From Colius striatus (Eukaryota > Chordata > Aves > Coliiformes > Coliidae), in contig NC_084790.1 of assembly GCF_028858725.1 (NCBI RefSeq), forward strand, positions 32,529,031 to 32,593,030: a stretch of 64,000 nt of DNA, in the 5' to 3' direction. Every line of letters starts with the position of its first letter. Position 1 is the first letter of the stretch. Shown here piece by piece: positions 35,881 to 60,285 of this stretch. The notes beneath the pieces are model-generated. The model was not told the DNA's origin, did not search any database, and saw only the letters and a program-made list of their open reading frames with translations. The translations under genes and the position numbers were made by a program.

Positions 35881-36299
35881 AAAAATACGGACACACAGAG
35901 GTCTATCATTCCCTCAGTTTACGGACCATCCCTCTAATGTGCCTGCTGAGTTCATTTAGTCAATAACTTCAGGTCTTCATTCATCATAAATCTTTCACAG
36001 CAGGAGAGACAGGGTGTGTGCGTGAGGTGAGTCATTGCATGCAGTAGCAGGAGTTTTCATCTAGTCTATTCAGTTTGTCTCGTATTCACAATTTGTGAGT
36101 TGAAGGTGTTGATCTTGAAAAAGTCACTGGGTGGTAGTCCACTTTTCACCATCCTATGTTTTGCTCATTCAAGTCCATCTTCCAGTGATCTGGATGGTTC
36201 TTCCTGCAATGTTAGTGACAGCATAGAGTAACTATAGTAGTGATGCCATACAACAGCAGGGTTATTCAACAACAATCATCATACAATTTAATTCACAGG
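35881..36299 (-). other. Non-coding stretch between pol and 3' LTR
   Basis: About 420 bp lies between the integrase C-terminus and the polypurine tract. It shows no envelope signal peptide, furin site or transmembrane stretch, which fits an env-less ERVL-type layout. Confidence 0.55.
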
Positions 36300-37190
36300 T
36301 TATTCCCACCCAAAATAAAATTCTATTGAGGTACACATTGAGTCTCCCCATCCTTGGCAATCACCCACCAAGTGAACCCAGGTGCCTGAGCAAAAACAAT
36401 CCCATGAATGGGTTTGCCTTTACCCAAAGTAGGACTCACCTAGACTGCATGTAACTTTTATGTGCACTACAGGGACTGTATCCCCTCCTACAGTATGCAG
36501 GGCCTACTCAGTTGACAGATCCTCTGGAGTTGATGGCCTTTTCTAAACATGTATCCCAGTGTTTGAAAGTCCCACTCTCCATTGCTCTCAGTGTGGTCTT
36601 CATTAATCCATTGTATCATTTAATTTTTCCAGAGGCTGGTGCATGTTAGGGGGTGTGATAGACTCACTCAATGCCATGCTCTTTGGCCCAGACATCTATG
36701 AGGTTGTTTTAGAAGTGTGTCCCATTGTCTGATTTAATCCTTTCTGGAGTGCCATGTCACCAGAGGATTTTCTCTTCAAGGCCCTGGATGGTGCTGCAGG
36801 CGGTGGCATGAGGCACCAGATACATTTCCAGCCAGCCAGTGGTCACCTCCACCACTGTGAGCACATGGCATTTGCCTTGGTGAGTCTGTGACAGAGTAAT
36901 GTAATTAATCTGCCAGGCCTCTCTGTATTTATATTTCTGCCAACACCCTTCATACCATATGGGCTTCCACCATTTGGCTTGTTTGATCATAGCACGTCTC
37001 ACACTCATGGACAACCTGTGCAATGGTGTCCAAGGTGAAGTCCACCCCTCGATCATGTGCCCATCTATAGGTGGCATCTCTTCCTTGATGATGGGAGGTG
37101 TTATGGGCCAACTGATCTAAAAATAACTCCCCCTTGTGTTGCCAATCCAAATCTACCTGAGCTACTCCAGTCTTTGCAGTCTTGTCCACC
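36300..37190 (-). pseudogene. ERVL-like integrase pseudogene (provirus 1)
   Basis: Integrase joins viral DNA to the host chromosome. The amino-terminal zinc-binding domain is visible in the frame 37189-36950, with 'HNTSH' and 'CETC' in H-X3-H...C-X2-C arrangement. The catalytic core starts in the frame 37077-36757. The first catalytic Asp is replaced by Asn ('WQINYI', codon at 36904-36906). The second Asp survives ('SDNG', codon at 36727-36729). The catalytic Glu is Lys (codon at 36619-36621), 36 codons after the second Asp, so the DDX35E spacing is intact although two of three residues are lost. A stop follows the second block. The C-terminal tail runs to about 36300. Confidence 0.85.
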
Positions 37191-37610
37191 TCCTAGTTAT
37201 AATGATGTTCTTCCACAGCCCAGTTCTTGGGTATGTGGGCATCTACATGTCACATTTCCAGAACCAGCTTCTCCAGCCAAGCAGCGATGTCTTACCATAT
37301 CGGGACAGCCCAGAGGGGTTTGCCTCATCATTTCCAGTCATTCTGTCTCCATTGCTGTAGCCATTCCCAGAGTATTTGCTGCCATCCACGAGTCAGTGTA
37401 GAGGTTAGTCCTTGGCCATTTTTCTTGTTCAGCAATGTCTGAAGCCAACTGGATGGCTTTTACCTCTGCAAACTGACTTGATTCTCTCTCTCCTCCTGTA
37501 TCTTCTGAAATTTTGTGTAGGGGACTCCACACAGCTGCCTTCCACCTCCAATGCTTTCCCACAATGTGACAGGATCCATCAGTGAACCCAGCATACCGCT
37601 TCTCATTTTC

Positions 37611-38937
37611 ATAGACTCATAGGATGGTAGGGGTTGGAAGGGAACTTTAGAGATCATCTAGTCCAACACCCCTGCAGAAGCAGGCCCACTTAGATCAGGT
37701 TGCACAGGAATGCATCCAGGGAGGTCTTGAAGACCTCCAAGGAAGGAGACTCCACACTCTCCCTGGGCAGCCTTTGCCAATGCTTCCTCAACCTCACAGT
37801 GAAATATTTTTTTCTTATGCTTAAATGGAACTTTTTGTGTTCCAGCTTCATTCCATTACCCCTTGTCTAGTCACTAGATACAATAGAAAAAAGAGATGAA
37901 CTAATCTCCTGACATCCAGCATTTATATATCTGCAAATATTAAATGTTTCCCCCTATCACCTCTTCTCTAGTCTAAAGAGCCCCAGTTCCCACAGCCTTT
38001 CCTCGTATGAAAGATATTCCAGACCCCTGATCACCTTGGTAGCCCTGTGCCGGACTCTCCAGAAGTTCTCTCTCTCCCTTGAGTTAGGAAGCCCAGACCA
38101 GGGCAGAGAAAAAGGGGGAGGAGAATCTCCCTTAATCTGCTGGCCACACTCTCCTTGATGCATCCCAGGATGCCATTGGCCGTCTTGGACATGAGGGCAC
38201 ATTGCTAGCTCACGGTTAGTTTATTACCAATCAGAACTCCCAGGTCTCTCTCTGCAGAGCTGTTCTCCAGCAGGTCAGTCCCCAGCCTGGACTGGTGCAT
38301 GGGGTTGTTCCTTCCCAGATGCAGGACTCTGCACTTGTCCTTGTTGAACCTCAGGAGGTTCCTCTCTGCCCAACTCTCAAGCTGGTCGAGATCTTGCTGA
38401 ATGGCAGCACAGACTTCTGGGGAATCAGCCAGCCATCCCAGTTTGGCGTCATCAGCAAACTTGCTAAGGGTACACTCATCTCTGACATCATCCAGGTCAT
38501 TGATGAAGATGTTGAACAAGATCAGCCACAGAATCCATCCCTGTGGAACTCCACTGGCCACAGGCCTCCAACTCAATTCTGTGCCATTGATCACCACCCT
38601 CTGGGCTCTGTCATTCAGCCAGCTCTTGATCCACCTCACTGTCCACTCATCCAAGCCACAGTGCTTGAGCTTTCTGATGAGGATGTTACGGGAGACAGTG
38701 TCAAAAGCCTTGCTGAAGTCAAGGTAGATGGCATCCGCTGCTCTCCCCTCATCTAGCCAGCCAGTTATGCCCTCGTAGAAGGCTATCAGTTTAGTCAAAC
38801 AGGATTTCCCCTTGGTGAATCCATGTTGACTCCTCCTGATAACCATCTTTTCCATGATATGTTTAGTGATGACAGGATGAGTTGTTCATCACCTTTCCAG
38901 GGAAGGAGATGAGGTTGACTGGCCTGTAGTTTCCCAG
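37611..38937 (-). mobile_element. CR1 LINE inserted in provirus RNase H
   Basis: The minus-strand 3' end lies at about 37611 ('atagactcataggatggtagggg') and the 5' truncation at 38937 in the RT amino-terminal region. TTTTC precedes the 3' end (37606-37610) and follows the 5' end (38938-38942), a plausible 5-bp TSD. Provirus sequence continues on both sides, so this CR1 is younger than the provirus. Part of it is strikingly similar to the CR1 at 22302-24940. Confidence 0.88.
38205..38855 (-). pseudogene. CR1 ORF2 RT fragment (216 codons open)
   Basis: A 216-codon open frame covers the RT core. It begins in the 'HGFTKGKSCLTKLIAFYEG' block, with motif A YLDF at residues 44-47, PQG at 104-106 followed by atypical W-I-L-W, the catalytic FADD at 133-136, and '[20 protein letters not shown]' downstream. 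The thumb is broken after residue 216 and lies in other frames to about 37957. The start Met is not a native start; the element is 5'-truncated. Confidence 0.88.
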
Positions 38938-39180
38938 TTTTCCAAGTTTTCTGTAAGTTCATCATACAATGAGATCTCTTCAGCAGGTGTCACCTTCTTC
39001 ACACTTTGGCCAGTTTGTGATCAATTCCAGAGTTCCAGGGTGGCTAGAATGCAAGCTTGCTGTGTGATCTGTGCAATCCACTTACTCCATGTAGCGTGAG
39101 TTGCACGTTGTGTGGTGGAGGCTTTATTTTGTCCTTTAAGCATTCAGCCCAGCACTGGCATGGGTGTTAGATGTTGTGTT

Positions 39181-40250
39181 TCTGTGCCAATCACTGCTGA
39201 GGCAGCTCAAACTCCTTCATATGCCGGCAGTATCTCCTCAGTTGAAGTGTATTGGACCTCAGATCCTCTGTATCCCCGACTTCAGAACCCAATGGGTCAG
39301 CCTCGAGTCTCCCCAAGTCCTCTCTGCCAAAGACTCCAAGTAGGGCCATTCTCCTCAGCTGCGGTGTAGAGCACATTTTTAACATCTGGTCCTGTCCAGA
39401 CTGGCCCAAGTGCCATTGCATGAACAATCTCCTGTTTAATTTGTTCAAAACTTTGTTGCTGTTCAAGACCCCATTCAATATAATTTTTCTTCCATTTCAC
39501 ATGGTAGAGAGGGCTCATGATCATACTGTAATATGGAATATGCATTCTCCAAAAACCCACAACACCTAAGAAAGCTTGTGCTTCCTTGTTGTTAGTTGAT
39601 AGAGACATGACTGCGATTTTGTTGATCACCTTTACTGGGATATGGCAACGTCCATCCCACCATTTTAATCTTAAAAACTGGATCTCCTGTGCAGGTCCTC
39701 TGACGTTACTTAATTTAATGGCAAAGGCAGCCTTCAGGATTTGAATTATTTTCTTCCCTTTCTTGAGAACTTCCTCTGCTGAGTTGCCCACACAACAATG
39801 TCATCAATGTATTGCAGATGTTCTGGGGCCTTGTCCTTCTCCATTGTAGCCTGGATCAGTCCATGGCAGGTGGTGGAGCTGTGTTTTCACCGCTGGGACA
39901 ACCCCTCTCCAAGTGAAAGCAAACTGGAACCTGCACTCTGCTGCCAAAGGGACTGAGAAGACTCCAGTTCATATTGGAGTTCCAGCATATCCGGCACAGC
40001 CACGCTCAGTGGTGGCATGATTCAGGCCACAATAGTCTACTATCAGTCTCCACTCTCCAGTAGACTTTCACACTGGCCATATAGGGCTGTTAAGGTGAGT
40101 GAGTTTTGCTGATCACCCCTTGGCTCTCCAATTGACGAATCAACTTATGGATTGGAATCACTGAATCTGTCTTGGTGCGGTATTGCTGCTGGTGCATTGT
40201 CATGGTTGCAATTGGTACCTGTTGCTCTTCAACCATCAGCAACCCCACAA
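39181..40250 (-). pseudogene. ERVL-like reverse transcriptase pseudogene (provirus 1)
   Basis: The catalytic box reads 'LQYIDDIVVW' on the minus strand, with the YIDD codons at 39800-39811. The following 165-codon frame (39791-39297) covers the palm end, thumb and start of the connection, including 'AFLGVVGFWR' and 'TAAEENGPTWSLWQ'. Upstream RT sequence to about 40250 is decayed and frame-shifted ('CHTDSVIPIHKLI'-like text). Confidence 0.83.
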
Positions 40251-41690: not shown

Positions 41691-44385
41691 AATACTTCAG
41701 AAATAAATGATCCTTCTGCTATACTAGATTGCCTACTAAGAGCACAGTCTTTTACCACATTCATAAACTTACTTTGAATAAAATTATTTCCTTTTAAGAT
41801 GAACAATCATTGAGCACTTGTTAGGTACAGGCCTAACACAAAGTCTGATAATGTGGCCTGCTCTGCCAGGGGGGCTGGACAAGATCATCTTTCCAGGTCC
41901 CTTCCAACCCTTCCGATTCTGTGATTCTTTCAGGCCACAGTAGAGAACTGTGAATTACTAAAATATATAAAATCTGGTTCTGCTTAAGAATCTTTTTTAC
42001 TGAATAGTAATTACACTGGAAATATGGATCTAAAAAAAATCGAAAAATTAGAAAAACTTATAATTTGAAAGAATTTTGGAACTAGAAAACTGTTGACATT
42101 TTAATGATGCACAAATTTAAAATACTGGGACCTGAGATAATTTCACAGTAATAAAACTTTCTTCGAATGTATGCATACTTGCTGTGCTCACAAAAGTCAA
42201 CATCACTGATGTGTAAATGTTTTCTCAATTTCAGCAGGAGAAGCTTCATACATGACAGCTTGGGCAGTTTTATGGGACTGTGCACTTCCAGTCTGGCCAA
42301 AGGAAAAAAGCAATTCCGTATTCAGGTGAACTGATACATTCTGGTTTTCAATTTATTACTCATGTACACGTTGTATTCAGTTTAATAGACTTAGTTTGTA
42401 GTTCTTCCTCTTCTCTAGGGTCTCTGCTCTTTTTTCTTTTTTTAATATGTAGGAAGATAAGTTTTTCTGTCATATCTAGATGAAATATTATAGCATCTTT
42501 CATTATTAAGAGAGGCTAGCAGAAAGGCTTTTGAAGCTTGTTTCGTTAGAAAGCCAGGCCAAAAGCAGGAATTACAATAACACTTCCTTTGCAATACAGT
42601 ATGATTAAATCAAGAGCCAAAGAAAAAGAGAGATGTTAGTTCTGCACAGTTTGTGTTTCATTCTACTGGAGATTTTTTTTTTGGCATCAAGAAACTGCAC
42701 GACAGACATTATTCAGCTTTAAAGTATCTGTTATTAAACTGAAAGATGACCAAGAAAGGAGCAATTTCCACACAATGAATAACAGGAATAGGAGTCTATC
42801 AAGCATAAACCCAATCTTTAAAGTCCATCCAGTGGCACAAAATGTTTGCAATGTGTATGTGAATTTATTCCTTTTAATGTATTGTACTATTTCCAAAATA
42901 TATTTTAGAATACCACATTTTTTGTAAAGTAGATCCAAATGCATAAAACTCTCCATCATGAGACATTGGTACTTTAGATCTTTCTTAAATTTCTTATTCT
43001 GAATGTTACCCAATAGAAGCTGACAATCAGAAACCAAAATCCAATTTCAAGTGTTTGATTTTTGAAATCTATAACAATGAAATAAATAAAATATTCTTCA
43101 AAGGAGGTAAGGAGAGTTATTATTTGTAAAGCTAAAATCTATGGAAGGTCTTGTCCCTTTCTTTCCTCAAGTGTTTGTGATTCTCATCTAGACAATCTTT
43201 TTTGTATTAAATGTTCTGACAAGAACAGAAAGTAAAGCCACAATTTGGCATATTGTAGATTATTTTCAATTTTTATTAATCATCAATCAAGCAGACAAAG
43301 CTTTTACTGAATTTTGAACACAGAAACAAAATGTCTCTTGGATAATACTACAGAAGTAGTGTCAGAAAGACACTGATATAAGAGAGCAGTTTGTGGCCTA
43401 CTGCATATGAAATAAAGTGCCAGTTTATTTCCTAGAACAGAAACAGAAAACATTGCAAATGTAGTGGAAATTACAGATCACTGAAATACATACGTTGCTC
43501 ATGTAGTCTTAATCCCTTTTGGATATTCACACAGAAAGCTACTGAATTAATGTCATAGTGTGTGTATGTGTGTGTGTAAATAATAAAACTAAGAAGGAAA
43601 AGAAGGGGAACAGTTATGTCTAGAAGTGTTAATTACCTGAAATACCACAATTTTGTACATGTCATCTCACTTACTTGCATATATGAGGTTTATTTTCACT
43701 TTAAATTGCAGGTTTTGTGAATGTGGACTTTTGATAAATACCACAGTACTGATTAACCCAAACTGCTCACAAAACTGCCCTTTTCTAAGACATGCAATCT
43801 AAGAAAGGACTTGTCCCATTGTTAAACACACCTACAGACAGAAGTACATGATGGGATAGCTAGATTTTTTGATTATATGGTAATATTTGTCATACATCTC
43901 CAGTCTTGAACATGTGCTCAGATACAGAAGCATCTTCAGCCTTACTTATGTAACTAACTACACTGGTTAAGAGCAAAGGCTCAATGTTTGTTCTCTAAGA
44001 CATAGCAGAACATAAAACATGCACACCGAAGTACTGAAGTAGGACACACAGCTCCATTAGATGTGTCTAATAAGCAGAACATGCTACTTAAGGAGATATT
44101 CAGAATCTATTACTGTTTTCTGCTGGAAAGAAATACAAAAAGAAGTCCTAAGGGGTCTAAAGGTGTCGGACCTTAACAAAAGATTGGCAAGGAGGATTGT
44201 AAATATGCTCAAGTGACCTGCAGCTGAGGTGATGAAAAACAGAGATATCAACAATGCTAACTATTGTTTAGCCCTGTGTGCTAAAGTAGAACATCCTGTT
44301 TAGATGACACAGGCTGAGAGGCACCTATCAGACATTCTTGAGATACCTGCCTTGCTGTGGAGAAGATCAAAACACAGTGAAAATT
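41691..44385. other. Unique AT-rich DNA with one CR1 tail
   Basis: No gene was recognised. A 116-codon minus-strand frame (42687-43037) is hydrophobic at its C-terminus but resembles no family and sits in AT-rich DNA. A short (TG)n patch lies near 43560. The CR1 tail at 41850-41934 is listed separately. Confidence 0.55.
41850..41934 (+). mobile_element. Very short CR1 3' end
   Basis: The text 'cctgctctgccaggggggctggacaagatcatctttccaggtcccttccaacccttccgattctgtgattct' is the terminal ~80 bp of a CR1 of the same subfamily as 11436-15275. It is not the missing end of the CR1 at 33700, which belongs to an older subfamily. Confidence 0.85.
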
Positions 44386-45495
44386 TGTGGTGGTTTAGCC
44401 AGGTGTCCACCAAGTCATAAAATCACTCCCCCTCTGAAACTGGATAGCAGAGAGAGAAAAATATAATGAGAGGTTTGTGAGTCAAGACAAGGACAGAGAG
44501 ATCGCTCAGCAATTAGTGTCATGGGAAAAACAGACTCAACATGGTGAGAAAAAGGTTTGATTTTTTAAAGGAACAATAAAAACAGGAAGATGAGAAATAA
44601 CAATCTTAAAACACCTCCCCTCACCCCTCCCTCTTCCCAGGATTCTCCTTCCCTCCCCACCAGGAGTGCAGGGGATGGGGTATAGGTGTTGCGGTCCGTT
44701 CATTACAGATGGACTTTGCTGCTGCTTCTTCTTAGTGGGAGGCCTCCTCACATTTACCACTGCTACAGTGTGGAGTCCCTCCGAACAAGAGACAGTCCCT
44801 CACGAACTGCTCCAGCATGGGGCCTCCCATGGGGGCAGCTCCTCACACTCTGCCCCAATGTGGGTCATCCACCAGAATAGTCTTCAGGTACCGACTGCTG
44901 CAGCTGAGACTCTCACAGGATCACAAGTCCTGCCAGCAAATCTGCTCTGGTGTGGGCTCCTCTTTCCCCATGGGCTCCCAAGTCCTGCCAAGAACTTGCT
45001 CCAGGGTGAGCTTCCCACAGAGTCACAGCCTCCTTCAGGCATCTACCTACTCTGGCATTAGGTCCTCTATGGGCTACGAGTGGATCTCTGGTCCCTGGTG
45101 ATACTCCATGGACTGCACAGGGACAGCTACCTCATCATGGTCCTCACCATGTGTCCCAGAGGACTCTTCTTTCAGGGCCTTAAGCACCCTCCTGCCCCTC
45201 CTTCTCCATTGACCTTGATGTCTGCAGAAATGTTTTTACATTCTCACTCCTTGTAGCTGCTGTAGTTTAGCAACTGTGCAGCAACTTTTTCTCCTTCTCA
45301 AATACATTCATCACGGAGGCATTCCCTCCATCACTAATTGGCCAGGCCTGGGTCAGGTGCGGGGTTCAGTTTAGAATTGACTGGTCCTAACCCTATCAGC
45401 TACAGAGGAAGCTTCTCGCAGATTTTTGGTTTAAGAAGCCACCCCCTGTAGCTCCCCCTGCTACCAAAAAACCTGGCCTAGGCAAAACCACTACA
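44386..45495 (-). mobile_element. Solo LTR, TGTAGTGG family (copy 2)
   Basis: It starts TGTGGTGGTTTAGCC and ends GGCAAAACCACTACA, flanked by a perfect 5-bp TSD, AAATT (44381-44385 and 45496-45500). It is the reverse-orientation sister of 16358-17514. The minus-strand 3' part contains the R/U5 landmark ('gcaattagtgtcatgggaaaaacagactcaac' on the plus strand). Frames of 64-131 codons inside are GC-rich chance readings. Confidence 0.92.
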
Positions 45496-48295: not shown

Positions 48296-50979
48296 TTGTG
48301 TGACAGAGATAATATGGCAGCAGAATTTCTTGAGTAATGATGTTCTCAAGTAATACACAAGCACTCCAACAGAGGTAAGTATTTTCAACAATAATGCTAT
48401 TTTCTTTGTCCAACAAAGGTGAAGAGTTGTACTAATACAGAAAAGGTCTGCACTCTTTGAAGGAAGGAGAGAGAAACAGAATGGATGAAAAGCTATAAGT
48501 TAATCAGGATGTTCAAAAAGTGCTAGGAAATGCTATTAAATGTGGAAGTGCAAATGAGTGATGTGTTGACCACAAAATCAATTATAGGGCCAGTGATAGA
48601 TGACAAAAAGGTAATTGTTAAGAGCATGCCCTTTCTGTATGCAAACATACATAAACACACAGAGGAAGAAATGCCAGACCTCACATTTCCCATTACAGGG
48701 GGCATGTCAAGCATCCGTACCCTCCTCTAACTTTCAATTACATACCCAATTATCACAGCTAAGGTGGCTGTGTGGCCAGCACTGAGGCAAAGAGAGAAGG
48801 AAGATGAGATTTTGCCTACATTTTACTCTGCTCTGATGGTGTATTTCTGTAACAATTTAGTCATCTCATCTCCCATCACAGACAGATGCAGCAGAAAGTA
48901 AAAAACCTCAATAAAATTCCAGATATCTTTGCTGCCAAGCACATATTTTGTTTGTTTACTCAGCTCTGTTTTAATATTTCATGTTTAATGATCCATTTTT
49001 CATCCAGGAGTCTGTCTAGCCCTTCAAGGATACATATATAGAGAGGCCTACAGCTACATTTTTTGAATGAAAGCAACTATTATTGGTTTTAATAGAAAGT
49101 TCTTTAGTCAGAGACAGACAGATAAGCTTGTTAAACCTCTGTCACACTTCTCTCTTAAAAATTTGACCATCACCAATATAACAATATCTGAATTTTTCTG
49201 AAAATTCATGAGCTATTTTAAGTGCCTAAATGAGAATGAAGATTTTCCTAAAGTCCTGTCCCAGCTCTGCTAAGTACAATAGCATCTTGCTTGAAGTCTA
49301 AAAATCAGGTTTATGGGAACTACAGGATCAAACTTCTGTAAGTAAAACCTCAAATTTGCCTTCAGTAATTGAATTTCCTGAAAACCTCTTCAAGGCTCAT
49401 ACTTCATGAAGAAAAGAAACTTGTGAGGCTAGGAAATAAAGGAAGGCTGACCACGTTACACAAGAGTGTTTTTTCTTCTCAAAAACTCACAATAAGAGAA
49501 TAATGGTTGTTCTTTCTAATTAGGACAAAACTGAAGTAGACAGACATTTTGCAGATGCAAATATGCTCTGAATTTATTTTGCACAATTCACTGACTACTT
49601 CATTACATTAAAGCAATATTTCAATATTTGACTCAGTATTTCAAATTAAATTTCAAATAAGACCAAGACATAAAATGAAAGGATAAATGTCTACTTGAGA
49701 CTGGAAATTTTGCTTCACACCAGGAACTGAAAAAAAGCCTGACTTCTTGTGCTTGGAAAGAAAATACAACTTATAAAGCATTTTTAAACATAGAAAATAT
49801 TTTAGCTGAAATATTTTTCCATATGACATTTTACCTTTAAGGGACTATATTTTTTTGCTAGCAACAATTCCAAATTAATACTTTTTGTTTGTAGTGATGA
49901 GTATTGATTTCTAACAGTTGAATCCTGCATAGTCATTACCATATTGAAACATTTTGACAAGTGTCTCCAACGATCCCAATGATCTCTGATAATAATTTTC
50001 TATCAAATTACATTAAACATGTGTTTTTTTCTTCACATAAAACTTTGAAACGTGTAAAGTACCTATCTGAAACACAACCATGCTTTTCTGACCCATACTA
50101 ACTCCTGAACTCTGCCTTAAAATTGTCTGGTGAGTATAAACTGAGTAGAACTGTCTTAGCAGCCACCAAGAGAATGATACATTTGTTTAAATGCCAGTAT
50201 CTAGAAGTATTTCTAGAGAATATTAAATTTAAAGTTGTTTTGAGTCCTTCTGGATTTAAAAGCTACAGAACATGACTGACAAGAACCAGTCTGTTCTTAA
50301 ATTTGCTAAATTAAATGTTCCGAAAATACATTGGTCTATTCATTTCCTTCTCTGTGTAAACATTGCAATTTCTAAAAAAAAATACATAAGATTTTGTGCA
50401 GACTTTCAACTATCTTCAAGCACAGATTTCCTAGCCCATCTCTCTTGACATGATCATAGTATAACTACAATAAATATGGGAAGATTCAGTGATGTTGGCA
50501 TGACAAATTCACACCTGAGACAGTTTGTATATTTATAAATCTGTAATGAGAACATACAGACAGCTTGTGATCTTGCTGATGTCAGTCAGCAATTCCAGAT
50601 AAAAAACTAGATAAAAGCTATCTTTAATATTCTAATGAATATTCAAATAATTTATCTGCTTTAAAAAAAAAAAAAAAACTGTTAACCTGCATAAAAGTGT
50701 ATTAAGCCAATACACTACTGCAAGTATTATGCAAAACTCTGTAAACTCTGACAATTGAGGATACGTTTATGGAACAGAAGTATATGAGGTCTATTCATAG
50801 CCAGCATTGTTTTGTTCTTAAAACAATCTCATTTTAGACAGCTGTCAACTGCCTGAGATATGAGAGACTTATCTTTGGGAAGAAACTTCTTTTTTGGAGG
50901 ACTATTTACGTCACAAAATTGATGCTCTCCTCCTGTGAGATGCAGCTGACCTAAACACTGGGGTTTATTTTTTAACTTA
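48296..50979. other. Unique AT-rich DNA
   Basis: No gene or repeat was recognised in these 2.7 kb apart from short homopolymers such as the A-run near 50662. Confidence 0.55.
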
Positions 50980-51240
50980 AAATCATAGAATCACAGGATG
51001 GTTTGGGTATGAAGGGCCTTTGAAAGATCATCTTGTCCAACCATCCTGCCATTGGGCTGAGATATCTTTCATTACAGTAGGTTGCTCAAAGTCCCATCAA
51101 ACCTGACTGCGAACAATTCCAGTGATGGAGCATTCACAGCTTTTCTGGGTAACCTGTTCCAGTGCCTCAACACCCTCATCATAAAAGAATTCTTTCTTAT
51201 ATCTAATCTAAATCTACCCTTTTTTAGTTTAAAACCTTGT
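50980..51240 (-). mobile_element. CR1 3' end fragment
   Basis: The minus-strand tail is 'aatcatagaatcacaggatggtttgggt', followed by CR1 3' UTR text ('tcatcttgtccaaccatcctgccattgggc', 'ttccagtgcctcaacaccctcat'). It breaks at about 51240. The subfamily differs from the long copies. Confidence 0.85.
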
Positions 51241-52466
51241 CTCAGCTTGTACCAACTGAGAGAGCAAAGCTATGTTCGCACAGGAGCTAGACTAATTGCT
51301 GAAGAGTTGAGGGACAAAACGTATCACAGTAGATTCATATACTGCCATGACAAAACAAGAATTAGGAAGGTGAAGTAGATGAACAGGGAGAGAAGACTGG
51401 GAAAGCATTTTTTACTAAGAATATGGCATTGCCCAAGCTCAATCAAACTCTGTCACAGCCCTCACTCTTTTGCCTTTTGTTTTGCTATGATCATGATCCA
51501 TTTACCTGACCTGACCTGATAGGAGCTACTGTCTGGGAGAGGTAGCATATCATCCCCTCATACTCTTTTGTGCAGAACCTGTGCCTGTGCTGAGATATAC
51601 TGTGTGATATCATTAAATCATCATGTGGTTTAATGACTGCAGGATGGAAAACTGCCCTATTTTGTCTTTTTGCAGGAATGGGCAGCAACCAAGAAAGAAT
51701 TTTATGGAATGAGGTGTTGCACTAAGTTGAAGAGAACAGCAGCTACATTTAAGATCTATTTCAAATTCATTTAAGAATCTATCCCTGAAAAGAAACACAA
51801 ATATGTAAGGTAAGAAATGGTTTTCAAAGAACATGGTGTGATTTGAAGAAGGGAAATCATTTATGCAGCAGCATGGTGAAAGAGTAGGAAATACTAAATA
51901 CTATGGAATTAAATGTGAATAACCTCTGAGTCTTTCAAGTTCCTTTTTATGAAATCTTTCAAAATCTATTTTAAGAAAATTATATCCTTGCATACTTTCT
52001 AGAAGACTGTCCTTTTCTTTCTCGCAAAGAATAAAATTACCATCATCTGGTTTTCAGCATGTAGGTCCTGTCTGAAATCTTGGTGTCAGCAGAAATGCAG
52101 CTAGAAAAATCTGCTACCTAAAGTAAGGGATTTTATGGGAAGTAACGAGATGAAAAAATGACTGTTCTATGCCTGTTCTCATAACTCACAGTGCACACCG
52201 CCTACAGGAATCCTCATCTGCTTTGTTTTCCTCTGGACACTGAACACATTGCATTTCATATGACAAAATTTAACTAGAAGTGCTGATCTTTTCTTTAGTC
52301 TTCTCTTTGATATTTCTATTTTTCTACTTCCACTTTTATTGCCATATGGTTCCCCTTTTCCACTAATTCTTCCATTCTTACACGCTCCATTCTCCTTCCT
52401 CTCCTGAATCCTACTTCCAAGAGTGCTGAAGCATCTGAGAATTCCACCCAAGTTGATATTTCCTGT
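51241..52466. other. Unique DNA
   Basis: No gene or repeat was recognised. The sequence immediately left of 52467 supplies the TSD of the next LTR. Confidence 0.5.
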
Positions 52467-53353
52467 TGTCATGACAGCCTTTTCTGGTAAGGGGGAAGGG
52501 GCTGCACAGATGGCTCCTGTAAGAAGCAGAGACTCATTTTACTAAGAACCCCGAGCCAGGGACAGTAACTATGGCTGGAGGAGGTCGTGTCCCATTGGAG
52601 GGACTCAATCACTTCTTTACAGACCCCGAGCCAGGAACAGTGATTCTCTTCATTAAAACTGTGGCCAGCAGAGGCTGTGTCCCATGGGAGGGACCCAATA
52701 TTACAGGAGCTGTAACCGTGGAGAAGGACCCACACCAAAGAAGCTCATTAAAATTATGCCCAGAAGAGGCCATGTTCTGAGGGAGGGAGCCTGTATCTGC
52801 AGAAACTGCAACCATGGCAAAGAATCCACAGCAGAGATAATCACTGAGGACTGTGTCCCAGGAGAGGGATCCCATATTGGAGCAGGGGAAGAATGCCAGG
52901 AGTCCTCCTCATCCGAGAAGACAGAAGCGGCAGAGCCCATCTGTCAGAGAATGACCACATTCCCCATTCCCTGCCCCCCTGAGCTACTGAGGGGGGAGGA
53001 GGTAGAGATATCGGGAGCAGTGAGCTGGGTCCGGGGAGAAAGGAGGGATGGGGGAGGGAGGTCTTAAAGTGCTGGTTGTAATTTTCTCATCATCCTACTC
53101 CCTTTTTGCTTTTTATTCCGTTCTGTTTTGTGTAGAATAAACTTTCCTACTTTCCTCTCTAAGTTGAGTACTGGAGTCTGTTTTGACCGGAACCGTAATT
53201 GGCAGCAAGCCCTTCCTGCCCTTGTCTCAGTCCACAACAACCTTGCTTATCTTTTTACTCCCTCTGCCATCCTAACGAGGGTGGGGGTGAATGTGGGGCA
53301 CCGAGTGAGAGACTGTCGTCGTGCTGCTGTGCTAGCTAGGGCAAACCATGACC
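52467..53353 (+). mobile_element. Solo LTR, tandem-repeat U3 family, copy 2
   Basis: It starts TGTCATGACAGCC and ends 'GCAAACCATGACC', where the last base of the usual TGACA is changed. It is flanked by a perfect 5-bp TSD, CCTGT (52462-52466 and 53354-53358). Its 3' half matches 27830-28167 and carries a TATA-like 'cttaaagtgctggttgt' and AATAAA near 53136. The U3 part holds ~85-95-bp repeats. Frames up to 127 codons lie entirely in the LTR. Confidence 0.88.
52585..52880 (+). repeat. ~85-95-bp tandem units in LTR U3
   Basis: The block 'gtgtcccatgggagggaccc' recurs in varied form near 52590, 52676, 52770 and 52852. Between the blocks, elements like 'gaagctcattaaaa' and 'gcagaaactgcaacc' also recur. 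The same repeat type appears with a period near 80 bp in the LTR ending at 28167. Confidence 0.7.
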
Positions 53354-54064
53354 CCTGTCTCCTGTCCTCAATTTTTAACCAGGTTTTACCCTGTAAAATT
53401 ATGAAAAAGTAGGAAACTAAAGTGCTAGCTGCACTGCTTCTTGTACCAGTCTAAAAAAAAAAAAAAAGGTAATAATCTTCTAGAAAAAAATTCAAAAGCT
53501 TACACCTAGATTCAGACAGTCACTTACTCAAGAAACAAATCAATCATATTTCCTGTGGAAAGAGAGACTTAAATTAAGATTGTTCAAAAGGAGGCATGAA
53601 TCATATGATCACAGTGTGGTCCATTTGAGATAGAGGAAAAAAGAGGGTTCTCTTTACCAATAATAATCATTATAGTTCACAAATGAATTAACAGAAATTT
53701 AACATTTTGCCTTTATATGGCTTCTCATGTGCAACACTGATTATTAGATGGTAGTTTTACCTGTAAAATACATAGGTTTCAGAGGATTTACTCATGTATA
53801 TCCCACCTGGGTGTTAGCTTAGGATCATGGAAAGGAGTGAAGAGAGGCCAAAAAGATAACGGTGATGAAGAATGAAAAGGAGATGAAGGTCAGCTAAATG
53901 TTGAAAAGTGAGGTGATAGAGAGAAGCAGTAGGCTTCAGTAAGTTCTGAGGATGAAACAGTAATAATACTCAAAATACTGGTCTGAAAATGCAACATGCA
54001 ATAACTGACGTTGCTATGTTCATTATCTTTTTGTTTCCTTGTCCCTTCATTTTTGTTCACTTGA
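53354..54064. other. Unique DNA
   Basis: No gene or element was recognised. A short A-run lies near 53455. Confidence 0.5.
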
Positions 54065-54458
54065 TCATTCTCCTTTATGACAAAAGGCTGAGGGAACTAG
54101 GGCTGTTTAGTCTAGAGAAGAGGATACTGAGCGGGCATCTCAATATTTACAAAAATCTAAATGGTGGATGTCAGGAGGTTGGGGCATCCCTTTTTTTCTG
54201 TTGTATCCAGTGACAGGACAAGGGGTAACGGGATGAAGCTTAAACACAAAAGTTCCATTTAAACATAAGAATTATTTTACTGTGAGGGTGACGGAGCACT
54301 GGAACAGGCTGCCCAGGGAGGCTGCAGTCTCCTTCCTTGGAGGTCTTCAAGGTGTTCCTGTGTGACCTGACCTAGGTGGACCTCCTTCTGCAGGGGGATT
54401 GGACTAGATGATCTCTAAAGGTCCCTTCCAACCTCTACCACTCTATGACTATATGACT
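54065..54458 (+). mobile_element. CR1 3' fragment
   Basis: It starts in the end of ORF2 ('[16 protein letters not shown]' at about 54076) and continues through the 3' UTR to terminal octamer-like repeats ('ctctatgactatatgac'). About 390 bp remains. Confidence 0.88.
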
Positions 54459-54832
54459 CCCAGCATACAGAAGAGAAGTCTGAGGGGTGAGCTCTTTCCA
54501 GTACACATCTTATTCAAGGGGTTCGGTAGAGTGGGAGGTACTGCTCTCCTCTCTGGTTATCGGCAACAGGATATGATGAAATGCAATGGAGCTTTGTAAG
54601 AGAAGGTTCAGATTGGACATTAAGAAGAGGTTCTTCACTGAGAGCATGGTCAGTTACTGGAACAGAGATTCCAGGGTAATCATTACAGTACTAAGACTAT
54701 CAGAATTCAAGGAGCATCTGAACAATGCTCTTAGGGTAGTTTAGTTGTTGGTAGTCCTGTCAGGAGTAAGGAGTTGGACTTGATCCTCATGGATCCCTTC
54801 TAACCTGAGATAATCTATAATTTTATAATTCA
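54459..54832 (+). mobile_element. Older CR1 3' fragment directly adjoining
   Basis: This is a different, more diverged CR1 tail: 'agaaggttcagattggacattaagaagaggttcttcactgagagcatggtcag' then 'ggagttggacttgatcctcatggatcccttctaacctgagata'. It abuts the previous copy, which suggests the younger CR1 landed in or at the edge of this one. Confidence 0.75.
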
Positions 54833-55574
54833 TCGGATTCTAATTCTTACCTTTTTCTAATAGTTTAGTTGCATTTCCCTTTACAACTTTCTAAGATGGA
54901 AACAAATCAAAGTTTGGTCATTTACAAATTACAGACTAACAAAGAAGTAGATACCACCTGAATATCATAATGGTTTGTTTAGAAATTACAGTCTGATATG
55001 AAACATAATCAAGTGCTAACTTCCTGCATTACAACGATAGTATATACTAACACACTATGCAAGAATGCTAGTGTACACTAGCTGTATACAGCACCAGCTA
55101 TATTCAAGTTATGATTTAATTTAGTAATTATTATTGTGCTCAGTGAATTCCTACCATTAGCTAAGGTTGCACAGACACCAGTACACACCATTCAGTACAC
55201 TTTTACAAAAGCAATGGTATTTCCCTTACAAAAGCAGTTCACACAAGAAGAAAATAATAGGAAATTAAGTATACAAACAAATCATCAGGAGTGGCAGAAG
55301 AAATGGAAGGCATTCATCCTGACTGAATAAAGGTACTGGGCACTTGGGGTCCAATTGTAAAACAAGGATGTTGGTGAAGAAATAGACAGTTCTCAAAGTT
55401 TTGCCTTATCGGAGTAGATAGAAAATTAAGCAAGTTCTCAATAGCAAACTTAAACTAAAGTTTAGGAAAGCGAATCTAAACCTCATGGCACATATTTAAG
55501 AGATAAGGGTGGAAATTTTACAGGAGCACGCTGTTAGAATCTAAATACAATGGCATGGTCAGTTAGATTTGGAC
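54833..55574. other. Unique DNA left of ERV remnant 2
   Basis: It contains a 64-codon open frame (55136-55330) of unknown identity, considered chance. The exact start of retroviral sequence to its right is blurred. Confidence 0.45.
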
Positions 55575-55601
55575 TCTACTAAGAAGAAAAAGGCTTTCAA
55601 A

Positions 55602-55745
55602 ATACTTACCTGGCAGGGGAGATACCATGATCTGGCAGGTGGTTTTCCCAGGGCAAGGTTCATCCCCTGCCCTCCGGGTGTGCTGACCCCTGCAATTTCC
55701 CCAAATGCAGGAAACTCGACTGCATAATTTGTGGTAGTGGGGGAC
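55602..55745 (+). pseudogene. U1 snRNA pseudogene, truncated at nt 144, inside ERV pol
   Basis: The insert begins exactly at U1 nucleotide 1 with ATACTTACCTGG, the 5'-splice-site-pairing end, and continues through stem-loops I-III to the Sm-site sequence AATTTGTGG (55726-55734). It stops inside stem-loop IV after GTGGTAGTGGGGGAC, U1 position 144 of 164. Several differences from the vertebrate U1 sequence I remember are CpG-to-CpA changes (near 55665, 55694 and 55709), as expected for decaying methylated DNA. Both flanks are ERV pol: 'gaagaaaaaggctttcaaa' before and 'ctgaacaacagcaaagc' after. The right junction lies in a TGGGG(G)AC stretch shared by U1 and the ERV. No snRNA promoter can be expected inside pol, so it is non-functional. 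Confidence 0.93.
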
Positions 55746-55863
55746 CTGAACAACAGCAAAGCTTTCAACAGATAAGAAATTGCTCAGGCAGTAGCCCTTG
55801 GGCCAGTTCGAACAGGATCAGATGTGAAAAAAGTGCTTTTCACTGCAGCAGGAAAGAATGGCA

Positions 55864-56125
55864 TGTTGTAGGCATCCAGAAGATCTCGGGTTGTAACGCG
55901 AGAGGTGGAGGGTACAGAAGAGGTGAGCACAGGGTGGAGTGAAAAGAGGTGCTTGTGTTAGCAGATAAAAGCACATGGTGTAAACAATTAGTTGGAATAA
56001 AGCACCATCCATCCTGTGTATGTAGTGATATTATCCCCTCAGCAGGGGTGGGCTGAGTGATCCGTGCAGGCGGCCTGGTGATGTTGCGTGCAGGCGGCCT
56101 GGTGATGTTGCCGGTAGTGACAACA
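55864..56125 (+). mobile_element. Small (262-bp) solo LTR with 6-bp TSD inside ERV remnant
   Basis: It starts TGTTGTAGGC and ends GTGACAACA. Flanking 6-mers are ATGGCA (55858-55863) and ATGGCC (56126-56131), a TSD with one mismatch that restores the uninterrupted pol sequence of provirus 1. An AATAAA poly(A) signal lies near 55996. A 6-bp TSD points to an ERVK-like integrase, unlike the 5-bp TSDs of the other LTRs here. A perfect 24-bp tandem repeat sits near its 3' end. Confidence 0.82.
56064..56111 (+). repeat. Perfect 24-bp tandem duplication
   Basis: The units at 56064-56087 and 56088-56111 are identical (GTGCAGGCGGCCTGG...). They lie in the 3' part of the 262-bp LTR. Confidence 0.92.
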
Positions 56126-56860
56126 ATGGCCCTACCTGGAGCCTCTGGCAAAAAGGACCTGGTAAGACTTGAGGCCAATCCCTTGGGTTCTGGAGTCAGG
56201 GATACAAAGGATCTGAGGCCTGATACACTACAACTGAGAAGGAGATATTGACAGTATATGAAGGAGTCCGAGCTGCCTCAGAAGTGATTGGGACAGAAGT
56301 ACAACTCCTCTTAGCAGCCTGACTGCCCAGTGCTGGGCTGGATATTCAAAGGGAGTGTCTCCTCCACACATCACGCGACTGATGCCACATGGAGTAATTG
56401 GGTTGCCTTGATCACACAACAAGTTCATACAGGAAACCACAGTCGCCCAAGCATCCTGGAAGTGATCACCAACTGTCCGGAGGGCGAAGACTTTGGAATA
56501 TTGCCTGAAAAAGCGACACATGCTGAAGAGGCCCCACCATACTGTCAGAAAATTACAATAAATATGTTTTGTTCACTGATGGGTCCTGCTGTATTGTGGA
56601 AAAATACCGAAGGTGGAAAGCAGCTGTGTGGAGTCCCCTACAACAAGTTGCTGAAGCTGCAGAAGGAGAAGGTGAATGAAGTCAGTTTGCAGAGGTGAAA
56701 GCCATCCAACTGGCTTTAGACATTGCTGAACGAGAAAAATGGTCAATACTATACCTCTGTACTGACTCCTGGATGTTAGCAAATGCTTTGTGGGAGTGGC
56801 TACAACAATGGAAACAGAATGACTGGCAACGCCAGGGCAAACCCATCTGAGCTGCTTCAT
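56126..56860 (+). pseudogene. Connection and RNase H pseudogene (ERV remnant 2)
   Basis: After the LTR insert, connection sequence resumes at 'aatggccctacctggagcctc', as in provirus 1. The RNase H core keeps all three recognisable acidic residues in one frame: Asp at 56578-56580 (T-D-G-S), Glu at 56692-56694 (F-A-E-V-K) and Asp at 56764-56766 (T-D-S-W-M). An in-frame TGA at 56677-56679 and other stops break the frame. The domain would degrade RNA in the RNA-DNA hybrid. Confidence 0.85.
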
Positions 56861-57009
56861 TGTGGCAAGACATCACTGCCCACCTGGAGAAGCTGGTTGT
56901 GAAGGTGCAGTATGTACATGCCCACATACCCAAGGACCGGGACAATGAATAACATCAGCACAACCAGGAGGTGGATCAAGCCGCCAAAATTGAAGTGGCT
57001 GAGGTACAT

Positions 57010-57800
57010 TTTAGACTAGCCGCATAAAGGTGAACTCTTCATAGCTCGGTGGGCCCACGATGCCTCAGGACATCAAGGAAGACATGCTACCTATAGATGG
57101 GCTAGAGATCAAGAGGTGGACTTGACCTTGGATGCTGTGGCACAGGTCATTCATGAATGTGAGATATGTGCTGCTATCAAACAGGCCAAATGGGTGAAGC
57201 TTCTGTGGTATGAAGGACGATGGCTCAAGTATAAATATGGAGAGGCCTGGCAGATTGATTACATTATACTGCCACTGACTTGCCAAGGCAAGCGCTACGT
57301 TCTCATCATGGTGGAGGAAAACACTAGATGGCTAGAAATATCCTGTACCTCATCAATCCTGGGCATTGAAAGGCAAGTCCTATGGTGACACTGCACCTCA
57401 GAAAGAATCGAGTCAGACAATGGGACGCATTTCAAAAACAACCTTTTAGATATCTGGGCCAAAGAGCATGGCATCAAGTGGGTCTACCACATCCCCTACC
57501 ATGCACCAGCTTCTGGGAAAACTGAATGGTACAATGGACTATAAAAGACCACTTTGAGAGTGACGGGAAGTGGGACCTTCAAACATTGGGACACTTACCT
57601 AGCAAAGGCTACCATCTGTCAATAGAGCTGGCCTTGCTGAATCAGAGCTCCTACACACTGTAGAAGGGGATAAAGTCCCTGCAGTGAGTATGAAAAAATC
57701 TGTTAGGAAAGACAGTTTGGGTCAATCCTGCCTCGGGCAAAGGCAATCCCATCCAGGGGAATCGTTTTTGCCCAAGTACCTGGATATAATTGTGACTGTA
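57010..57800 (+). pseudogene. Integrase pseudogene (ERV remnant 2), DDX35E intact
   Basis: The zinc domain has His at 57056-57058 and 57071-57073, and Cys at 57158-57160 and 57167-57169, giving H-X4-H-X28-C-X2-C. The catalytic core keeps Asp at 57257-57259 ('WQIDYI'), Asp at 57416-57418 ('SDNG') and Glu at 57524-57526 ('SGKTEW'). The last two are 36 codons apart, the DDX35E signature. All are in one frame, but a TGA at 57386-57388 and a stop just after 'YNGL' interrupt it. Compared with provirus 1, about six codons are missing between the first two Asp residues. Confidence 0.88.
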
Positions 57801-58314
57801 AAACCTTTTCAAGAAGTGTAGGATATCAGGTGCTAAAATACTGCATGTAAATTTCTTTCATTATGTGATTACAACAATAAGGCTACAGAAGACTTATTCT
57901 CATCATGATCCCAGTTTAAATTTGGTTCTAACATTCCTAATCTGACCTGTGATGTCAGCAAGACTAATTTCCTTTCTTTGCACCCCTTTTGAATAGAAAT
58001 GGGAGGTTTTTTCCTCTACTTTAATGTGAATTAATGACTTGCAACATTACTTCTGTTAATTCAGCTTACTGTCCCAGTGGAAACAAAAGGAATCAGTATA
58101 ACATATTCCAGTCTTTAAAGTACTGATGATATTAATAAAAATAAAGCATAATCACAAATAAAACATGAATAAAGTTTTTTAAAGCAGATGGTGAAAAATG
58201 TTTCGTTCAAAGCAATGTGTCTGAGACTGTTGAAATTTACATGTTTCTTTTTAGTTGTTTCACAAGCACATTGTTGAATGTCCCATTTTCAGATGCAATT
58301 TTGATGAATAACTA
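57801..58314. other. Unique AT-rich DNA
   Basis: No element was recognised between the ERV remnant and the next CR1 tail. Confidence 0.5.
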
Positions 58315-58640
58315 GGTTTAATATTTACAAATATCTAAAATGTGGATGTCAGGAGGTTGGGGCGTCCCTTTTTTCTGCTGTATTGAGTGACAGGACAAGG
58401 GGTAATGGGATGAAGCTGAAACACAAACAGTTCCATTTAAACATAAGAAAAAAACTATTTCACTGTGAGGGTGAGGGAGCAGTGGAACAGGCTGCCCAGG
58501 GAAGGTGTGAAGTCTCCTTCCTTGGAGGTCTTCAAGACCCATCTGAACGTGTTCCTATGCTACCTAATCAAGGATGCTTCTGCACGGGAGTTGGATCTTT
58601 AGAGGTCTCCTCCAATGCCTACCATTCTATGATTCTATGA
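58315..58640 (+). mobile_element. CR1 3' UTR fragment
   Basis: It shows the CR1 3' end from 'aatatttacaaatatctaaa' through 'tgacaggacaaggggtaatgggatgaagct' and 'actatttcactgtgagggtga', finishing in 'accattctatgattctatga'. It has the same subfamily look as 54065-54458. Confidence 0.88.
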
Positions 58641-60285
58641 CTAAAGATCCACAGTTGTAATATAACGAAAAGTTTAACAATCTCAAAAAGAATGGTTAAA
58701 CAAGAGCCAGATCTCTGTAGCACTTACTAGTTACTTGTTGCTCTTTTACGGAAATTTTTTACCCATAGGTTGGAGAAAGGGCATCACAAAATACTACAGT
58801 TTTGTTCTAACAAATCCCTTATCACTGACTCTGTTATTGACAGTTATCTACTAATTTCTGCAAATTCACAGACCTAAATCCACATCTTCATAGTTTTTAT
58901 TCACCTTCCATTTTCTACTTCAAAGTTGTAAGCTGAGCTACAGTAATTTCCATTATGAAATTACCATAAAAATGAAAAATAAATAATATGGAAAATAAAT
59001 GCATTTCATACTAGTACTAATCACTTCAGGGAAGATTCTGCATATAACTGAAGATTTATAGTATATTTTTTAAGGCATAGAGTAGTTCTGCTACATTTTT
59101 AATAGTAATTCTAAAATTGCTATATTAAAATACAGTCTTGATATTTCACTCAATAAAAATAGCACTATCTCTTAGAGAAAGGCAACTTCAGCTACTCTCA
59201 ACTGAGAACAGTAAGATAATTTTGGAAGTAAAATGTATCTTATAAAAATGAAATGAATTTTTTTTTTCCTCTACATCCTTCATACCTGAAATAACATTTT
59301 AAATACTTGTTCACGGTATTCACCCAGCTACATCATTCTGTAGCTGATTCTCTGGAACAAATGTGGAAAAATCCTTCTCAAAATCTATTAGTGACTGCAC
59401 TCTACTTCATTTCCTCCATGACAGCTTGAAAAAGGTCCATTCTGTCACTGGAATGTGTGTTTCCTGTTACTTTCAGCACAGTTTCACACGATCACTGTTT
59501 TTGGGCACTGATATGTTGTTGCAATCTGACAGAGTCCATTTGTTAACAAACTTGAAATCAGAATTTACACTCTCCTTAAGAACAGACTCCAAACAAAAAG
59601 AAAAAGGAGATATTTGAGGACCCTACAGTTGCACCTGGGGCTTATGGGAGAGTTTGGTGCTTCTCATTCCCTCCAGGAACTGGTGAATCCCTTGACACAG
59701 GAGCCCCAGTGTCACGCTTAGTACTGACACCTTGTGGCAAGGAAAACTACTACAGATAATCTCTGACCTTTCTAAACTATTACACATCAGCATAACAGGA
59801 AATCAAGGAATTTTTAACATTTTTTTAATAAATATTTTTTTTAAAATATGTTTATTCCCACAGAGAGTTAAATTGTATTTAATTAAATAAAAAGAAGGAG
59901 TCAGGCAAGGAAATCTTGGATACCATACAACAAACATAAATTGATCAACATCAAAGAAGCCCAAGTATTAGCAAAGCCAAGTATTAGCAAACATGCATTG
60001 TAATTTCCCTCACAAACTCTGGTTGATCTGCAAGGTGGAGCTCTGTATACACAAATTCCTTTTTAGAGATTCAAATTCCTTTCAAGAATTGGCTATTCAC
60101 TACTTACTGCTGTTACTGTTGCCTAAAATAGATAGCACTGAAACTGAGGTTGGTTATGCCTTGTGCACATGAAAAATCCAAACTCTCTTCAGGACCTCTC
60201 ACTGCAGGAACTCAAATGCCACCTCTTGGTTTGCTGCAAGTACTCTTCACTTGCACTTGCTCTGACCCAGCCTCCATTAAGTGTC
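58641..60285. other. Unique DNA
   Basis: No gene was recognised. An 84-codon frame (59363-59617) has no family resemblance. A small duplicated motif ('ccaagtattagcaaa', twice) lies at about 59960-59992. Confidence 0.5.

Follow-up and report, generated by a model that had tools for sequence, protein, structure and literature searches.

It is generally assumed that CR1 requires its own 3′ end, and SINEs headed by small nuclear RNA (snRNA) sequence are known as SINEU. For 3′-truncated snRNA copies of mammals, a template-choice model with complementarity at the 3′ junction has been put forward, and target-site duplications are given for 70-100% of them (PMC4476161). The same study documents snRNA-LINE chimeras made by template switching (U6-L1 and U6-L2), mentions one unresolved U6-CR1 copy in turkey, and counts no U1/L1 switch chimera among 33 U1 sequences (PMC4476161). 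L1, with its relaxed choice of template, has been connected with tail-less snRNA copies, L2 and RTE being named as stringent; no such copies were found in chicken, as shown for 5S and U2 (PMC5322556). Template switching by CR1 onto a tRNA has been proposed (PMC5729268), and the packaging of snRNAs by retroviruses has been reviewed (PMC4997597).

In the present work, a truncated U1 snRNA copy inside pol of an endogenous retrovirus (ERV) was characterized in the bird Colius striatus. The window, that is, the whole stretch of DNA analysed, comprises 64,000 nt (NC_084790.1, 32,529,031 to 32,593,030, forward strand), and the following features of it are referred to below.

36260-39800, minus strand: the "sister", a related ERV copy into which a LINE is inserted
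54833-55577, plus strand: sequence left of the ERV fragment, non-matching to ERV loci
55578-55601, plus strand: ERV pol directly adjoining U1 on its left (24 nt; codons -8 to -1, preceding W-G-P-E-Q-Q); 20/24 identical to ERV copy L075
55602-55745, plus strand: U1 snRNA nt 1-144, 3′-truncated; cmscan 110 bits, 136/144 to main U1
55740-55862, plus strand: ERV pol right of U1, up to 92% identical to genomic copies; first 6 nt GGGGAC
55863-56124, plus strand: separate 262-bp insertion in the ERV copy; its two sides are adjacent in 28/28 readable copies
56125-57792, plus strand: continuation of ERV pol, with a sharp end at 57792; weak integrase signal, domains below cut-offs

Like mammalian tail-less snRNA retropseudogenes, the window copy starts at U1 nt 1, ends inside the RNA, has no poly(A) at its 3′ end and displays complementarity at the 3′ junction, where GGGGAC is shared. 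Unlike them, it is found in a bird, is flanked by no target-site duplication and would have been primed inside stem-loop IV, in whose 5′ strand we place the truncation, assuming the usual loop numbering. The U6-L1 and U6-L2 chimeras, with the snRNA first and in sense, are resembled by U1 copies at five other loci in the genome, whereas a LINE part is missing from the window copy; ERV pol, and no LINE 3′ segment, stands directly after it. As in host RNAs captured by retroviruses, a small host RNA lies within retroviral sequence and is flanked by it left (for 24 nt) and right, but here there are no LTRs, a single locus and no evidence of spread. The insertion is real and well resolved, but taken alone it is a modest find. 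What makes it of interest is the tail-less U1 copy, the repeated U1-CR1 fusions in a bird genome and the apparently equal ages of U1 and ERV, and the find bears on which enzymes make such RNA copies.

A preliminary description, made from the letters alone, had recognized U1 nt 1-144 in sense orientation, with the left junction exactly at nt 1, and had recommended alignment to functional U1 genes for the exact ends. That alignment placed nt 1-144 on 55602-55745 (+) without gaps, at 136/144 identity to the main U1 of the same genome, and upheld the left junction. When the window was searched with cmscan at Rfam gathering scores, U1 (RF00003) was not simply the best snRNA match but the sole match of any kind (110 bits, E 7.9e-27, 55602-55767, plus strand; the last ~20 positions are ERV sequence). 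The observation of a truncated U1 inside ERV pol is therefore confirmed. In the genome (1.21 Gb), at least 27 U1 matches were found among the best 42 of 21,517 candidates. Eleven of these, each of at least 160 bits, lie in one cluster on contig C3 and were taken as functional genes; besides this cluster there were the window copy and another 15, of which 6 exceeded the family cut-off and 9 fell short of it, and their divergence led us to regard them as pseudogenes. The upstream flanks of these 16 pseudogenes were compared with the upstream sequence of the main U1 genes, and 15/16 stayed within the maximum of 40 shuffles; the remaining one, L021, exceeded it by a single point (26 vs 25). The 5′ end at nt 1, together with this lack of upstream similarity, indicates an RNA intermediate.

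Within retroviral pol, the U1 copy is bordered by TTCAAA on the left and by (T)GGGGACC on the right. The right flank was identified as pol both by tblastn and by other genomic copies, and these copies start to match at 55740-55742, within TGGGGGAC, in agreement with the earlier placement of the right junction in a TGGGG(G)AC common to U1 and the ERV. GGGGAC belongs equally to ERV pol and to U1 nt 139-144; by a simple formula, the chance of at least 6 shared bases is ~0.0013. Comparison with the other copies also showed that both junctions fall at a single ERV position. A duplicated or deleted ERV segment at the junction had been named as evidence that would speak against the earlier reading; there was no duplication, and the target changed by the loss of 0-1 nt (at most one T missing or one G added). 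An L1-type nick site, TTTT/A, was not present, the bottom strand at the site reading GTCCCC and then ATTT, as deduced from the window's left flank and from other ERV copies. An 8-nt direct repeat, GCTTTCAA, does flank U1 plus 15 nt, and 90 cross-pair controls (10 loci) reached at most 6. This repeat would be expected if U1 had arrived by ordinary insertion with an 8-nt target-site duplication and a 15-nt tail. The supposed tail, however, is pol sequence contiguous with what follows it in other ERV copies, which refutes that explanation and leaves it with hardly any probability. GCTTTCAA was also rejected as a target-site duplication in its own right because pol codons -3 to -1 and +8 to +10, on the two sides, produce the repeat. 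The view that this is not an ordinary poly(A)-primed retrocopy, originally based on the lack of a tail and of a target-site duplication, was sustained.

U1 had further been described as lying between two pol stretches that are contiguous in the sister. Pol is indeed present on both sides; the left stretch, however, is only 24 nt long, since ERV homology stops there, and it is recognized by other copies and not by the sister, to which it could not be aligned at the DNA level (338/500 shuffles scored as high). With pol homologues, tblastn gave no match to the left flank at E values up to 1. The identity of 20/24 with L075 equals the median between copies (also 20), and it was equalled at 0/3,314 sampled plus-strand positions (50000-60000) and in 0/20,000 permutations. 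The 8-codon profile score was reached by 1/400,000 Markov 24-mers and 5/100,000 permutations; in the window, 3/128,002 positions scored as high, the flank itself and the sister included. In a frameshift-tolerant scan with 60 pol columns, 87/128,002 positions were as good as the left flank, and the other high scorers in these pol-column scans were A-rich stretches. On the strength of the eight adjacent codons and 26 other genomic ERV copies, and not of the sister, we regard the 24 nt as established to be ERV pol, as judged from sequence comparison.

The null alignment to the sister and the 60-column scan had suggested a bipartite chimera, in which U1 would form the 5′ end of a 5′-truncated ERV retrocopy and the left flank would be target DNA; this candidate was overturned by the other ERV copies. 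It would have had the order and orientation of the U1-LINE fusions of the same genome, and no clear ERV homology extends beyond the 24 nt (in the left 150 nt, the best local score against the ERV was 40, reached by 1/60 shuffles). Pol at the median between-copy identity in the left 24 nt largely refutes it. Moreover, no second AAAAAGGCTTTCAAA lies downstream of U1 in the window, even when up to 3 mismatches are allowed, and after the ERV end only the 6-nt TTTCAA was found, a length reached by 1/60 controls. We consider such a chimera very improbable.

The earlier interpretation is partly supported. The two mechanisms that it offered, template switching and microhomology-primed insertion, are upheld as the alternatives, and the coincidence of both junctions at one ERV position favours primed insertion. 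With moderate confidence, we interpret the locus as a 3′-truncated, tail-less U1 retropseudogene that was primed inside U1 at nicked or broken ERV DNA, probably by the CR1 enzyme. A reverse transcriptase acting on nicked or broken pol DNA, in an ERV copy presumably already present in the genome, would have used U1 snRNA as its template. The freed 3′ end, ...GTCCCC, would anneal to GGGGAC at U1 nt 139-144, cDNA synthesis would proceed as far as nt 1, where U1 begins, and the remaining end would be joined bluntly, which would leave no target-site duplication and cost 0-1 nt of target. Against this interpretation, mammalian 3′-truncated copies mostly have target-site duplications and this one has none. 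The same features, namely a blunt left junction, microhomology on the right, a loss of 0-1 nt and no target-site duplication, would also be produced if a chance DNA break in the ERV had been repaired with a patch of U1 cDNA or RNA, without a LINE endonuclease. Free U1 cDNA lacks an evident source in that scheme, however, and the U1-LINE fusions offer a simpler one; we judge such repair unlikely, slightly more so than the retroviral route discussed below.

For primed insertion, CR1 reverse transcriptase would be the likeliest enzyme, because U1-CR1 fusions show that CR1 reverse transcription meets U1. Among the 16 pseudogenes found, at least 5 are U1-LINE fusions with U1 first and in sense, as listed here (U1 starts at 2001 in the oriented loci).

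L027: U1 5-128, sense; CR1 part stops before the 3′ end
L028: U1 2-73, sense; regular ATTCTATG-type tail by eye
L029: U1 2-72, sense; regular ATTCTATG-type tail by eye
L030: U1 1-83, sense; weak match (E 0.002), irregular tail
L032: U1 1-140, sense; ~31 nt between U1 and CR1, regular ATTCTATG-type tail by eye

The LINE match is strong in all of these except L030. The comparison with CR1 covered 10 of the 15 other pseudogenes (all but L015, L017, L018, L019 and L023). We take the LINE to be CR1 on account of its ATTCTATG-type 3′ tail, its many 5′-truncated copies and the bird host; a Pfam search of the putative CR1 returned reverse transcriptase (RVT_1) in two pieces. The breakpoints of L028 and L029 (U1 nt 73 and 72) presumably lie in the loop of stem-loop II. 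These two loci are alike through the junction and may thus represent one event that was copied, or two. No report of U1-CR1 fusions was found in the titles and abstracts searched, which were mostly outside the subscription literature. Taken together, a clean tail-less U1 and the U1-LINE fusions, at least five in number, that accompany it in one bird genome suggest that CR1 also accepts U1. Against a role of CR1 in the window insertion itself, the copy has no CR1 tail and nothing ties CR1 to it directly.

Other arrangements were seen next to U1 pseudogenes. In L031 (the same locus as L009; 2141-2170), U1 1-140 is followed by 17 A/T-rich nt and GATTCTATGAT, which is CR1-tail-like; the region contains older CR1 pieces. 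In L024 (2001-3277) and L025 (2005-3241, both oriented), which are U1 pseudogenes on different contigs, U1 is followed by ~25 and 7 nt, respectively, and then by an LTR-like element of one family, copies of which are present in the window at 44385-45495 (+) and 17515-16357 (-).

The ages of U1 and of the ERV copy were compared next to one another. U1 differs from the main U1 at 8/144 positions (0.056). In a tree of 27 copies (the window and 26 others) over 462 columns, the window ERV copy had a tip length of 0.053, the median tip being 0.049, and it carried 8 private changes in 446 sites. When 8/144, the higher proportion, was set against 8/446, Fisher's test gave p 0.03, or 0.06 if T66C, which by eye is common to other pseudogenes, was left out (7 differences). 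Three U1 changes are of CpG type by eye, and CpG decay may inflate the apparent age of U1. In dating by the sister only, 17/26 differences in the piece adjoining U1 fell at third codon positions. By these sequence measures, U1 looks no younger than the ERV copy and the insertion about as old as it, which speaks for an insertion of U1 at the time when the ERV copy arose or shortly afterwards. Against the primed insertion that we prefer, a later insertion should look younger, yet the values are 0.056 and 0.053; these fit retroviral capture, and they also fit insertion soon after integration.

Since U1 looks no younger than the ERV copy, the retroviral route was kept. U1 would have been captured during reverse transcription of ERV RNA, the minus strand leaving the ERV at GGGGAC, copying nt 144 to 1 of U1 and returning to the ERV, after which the patched cDNA entered the genome. 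Besides the equal apparent ages, the same orientation and the 6-nt microhomology at the departure point speak for capture, and retroviruses package snRNAs, a 7SL recombinant being cited in the available part of a review (PMC4997597). A second breakpoint only 24 nt left of U1 also counts against primed insertion, and such a further discontinuity is expected of a jumping polymerase. The double template switch is nevertheless less favoured because it needs a return to the exact nucleotide that was left, here without visible homology at the return point; neither end of the window ERV copy has an LTR, and none of the 29 other fetched copies shares U1, though a defective cDNA would not spread. We therefore rate capture during reverse transcription as rather unlikely, and the fuller statement that a bird ERV reverse transcriptase captured U1 in pol, so that the locus would preserve, as a fossil, a double template switch in which packaged U1 was copied, as unlikely to much the same degree.

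A search for the same U1-pol junction at several loci had been proposed as a means of telling capture before integration from later insertion. With the right flank, 29 further ERV loci were obtained from the best 40 of 2,745 candidates, and blastn found U1 in 0/29 of them within ~1.5 kb to either side. At the site itself, U1 was absent from 26/26 readable other copies (L054 being the window itself, L055 and L073 unreadable at the site and L082 without a row). Conversely, when pol homologues were compared with L001-L053 by tblastn, pol was found in one locus only, L034, which is the window's own; no other fetched U1 copy therefore adjoins this pol, the flank examined beside the 15 other pseudogenes being 300 bp for five and ~2 kb for ten. 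Occurrence at a single locus does not prove insertion after integration, because a U1-in-pol cDNA, being defective, would likewise be expected at one place, which makes the one-locus test undiscriminating.

Four of the 26 copies (L056, L060, L068 and L080) scored low over the upstream 150 nt, and in L068 the cause is an insertion. This ~680-bp LTR-like insertion lies in the same TGGGGAC of pol, between GGGAC and GGGAA, and resembles an LTR with a 5-bp duplication. Among the best-scored candidates, 24/29 other ERV loci are on contig C39 (42 Mb), which is perhaps part of a sex chromosome.

The U1-bearing ERV copy is a fragment cut at both ends (55578 and 57792) and measures 1,815 nt when its two inserts are left aside. 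No LTRs were found at its ends, and the word provirus is therefore unfit for this copy. On the right, 14 copies match up to 57792; 12 of the 14 were inspected, and 12/12 continue and agree with one another, as the sister likewise continues past the equivalent position. On the left, 54833-55577 had no match in the 29 other ERV loci and no self-match within the window; among the best 40 genome matches to 54460-55601, which were taken up by another repeat, it was covered by the window alone. Further left, a CR1 3′ end (54059-54456) is directly followed by a repeat (54461-54832) that is older and includes a short stretch resembling CR1.

The 262-bp insertion consists of a 225-bp repeat and 37 nt. 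The 225-bp repeat also occurs elsewhere in ERV loci L055, L061 and L074 (3/29), and with 95% identity at C39:5120595. In the sister ERV copy, a LINE with a reverse transcriptase reading frame is inserted at 37605-38940 (-); we presume it to be CR1. A scan of viral contigs gave no relatives of the sister pol piece. The ERV family is presumably ERV-L. The sister pol piece has 255 homologous proteins, RVT_1 and RNase H domains occur among the homologues, and those with a source name among the 120 listed all bear bird names.
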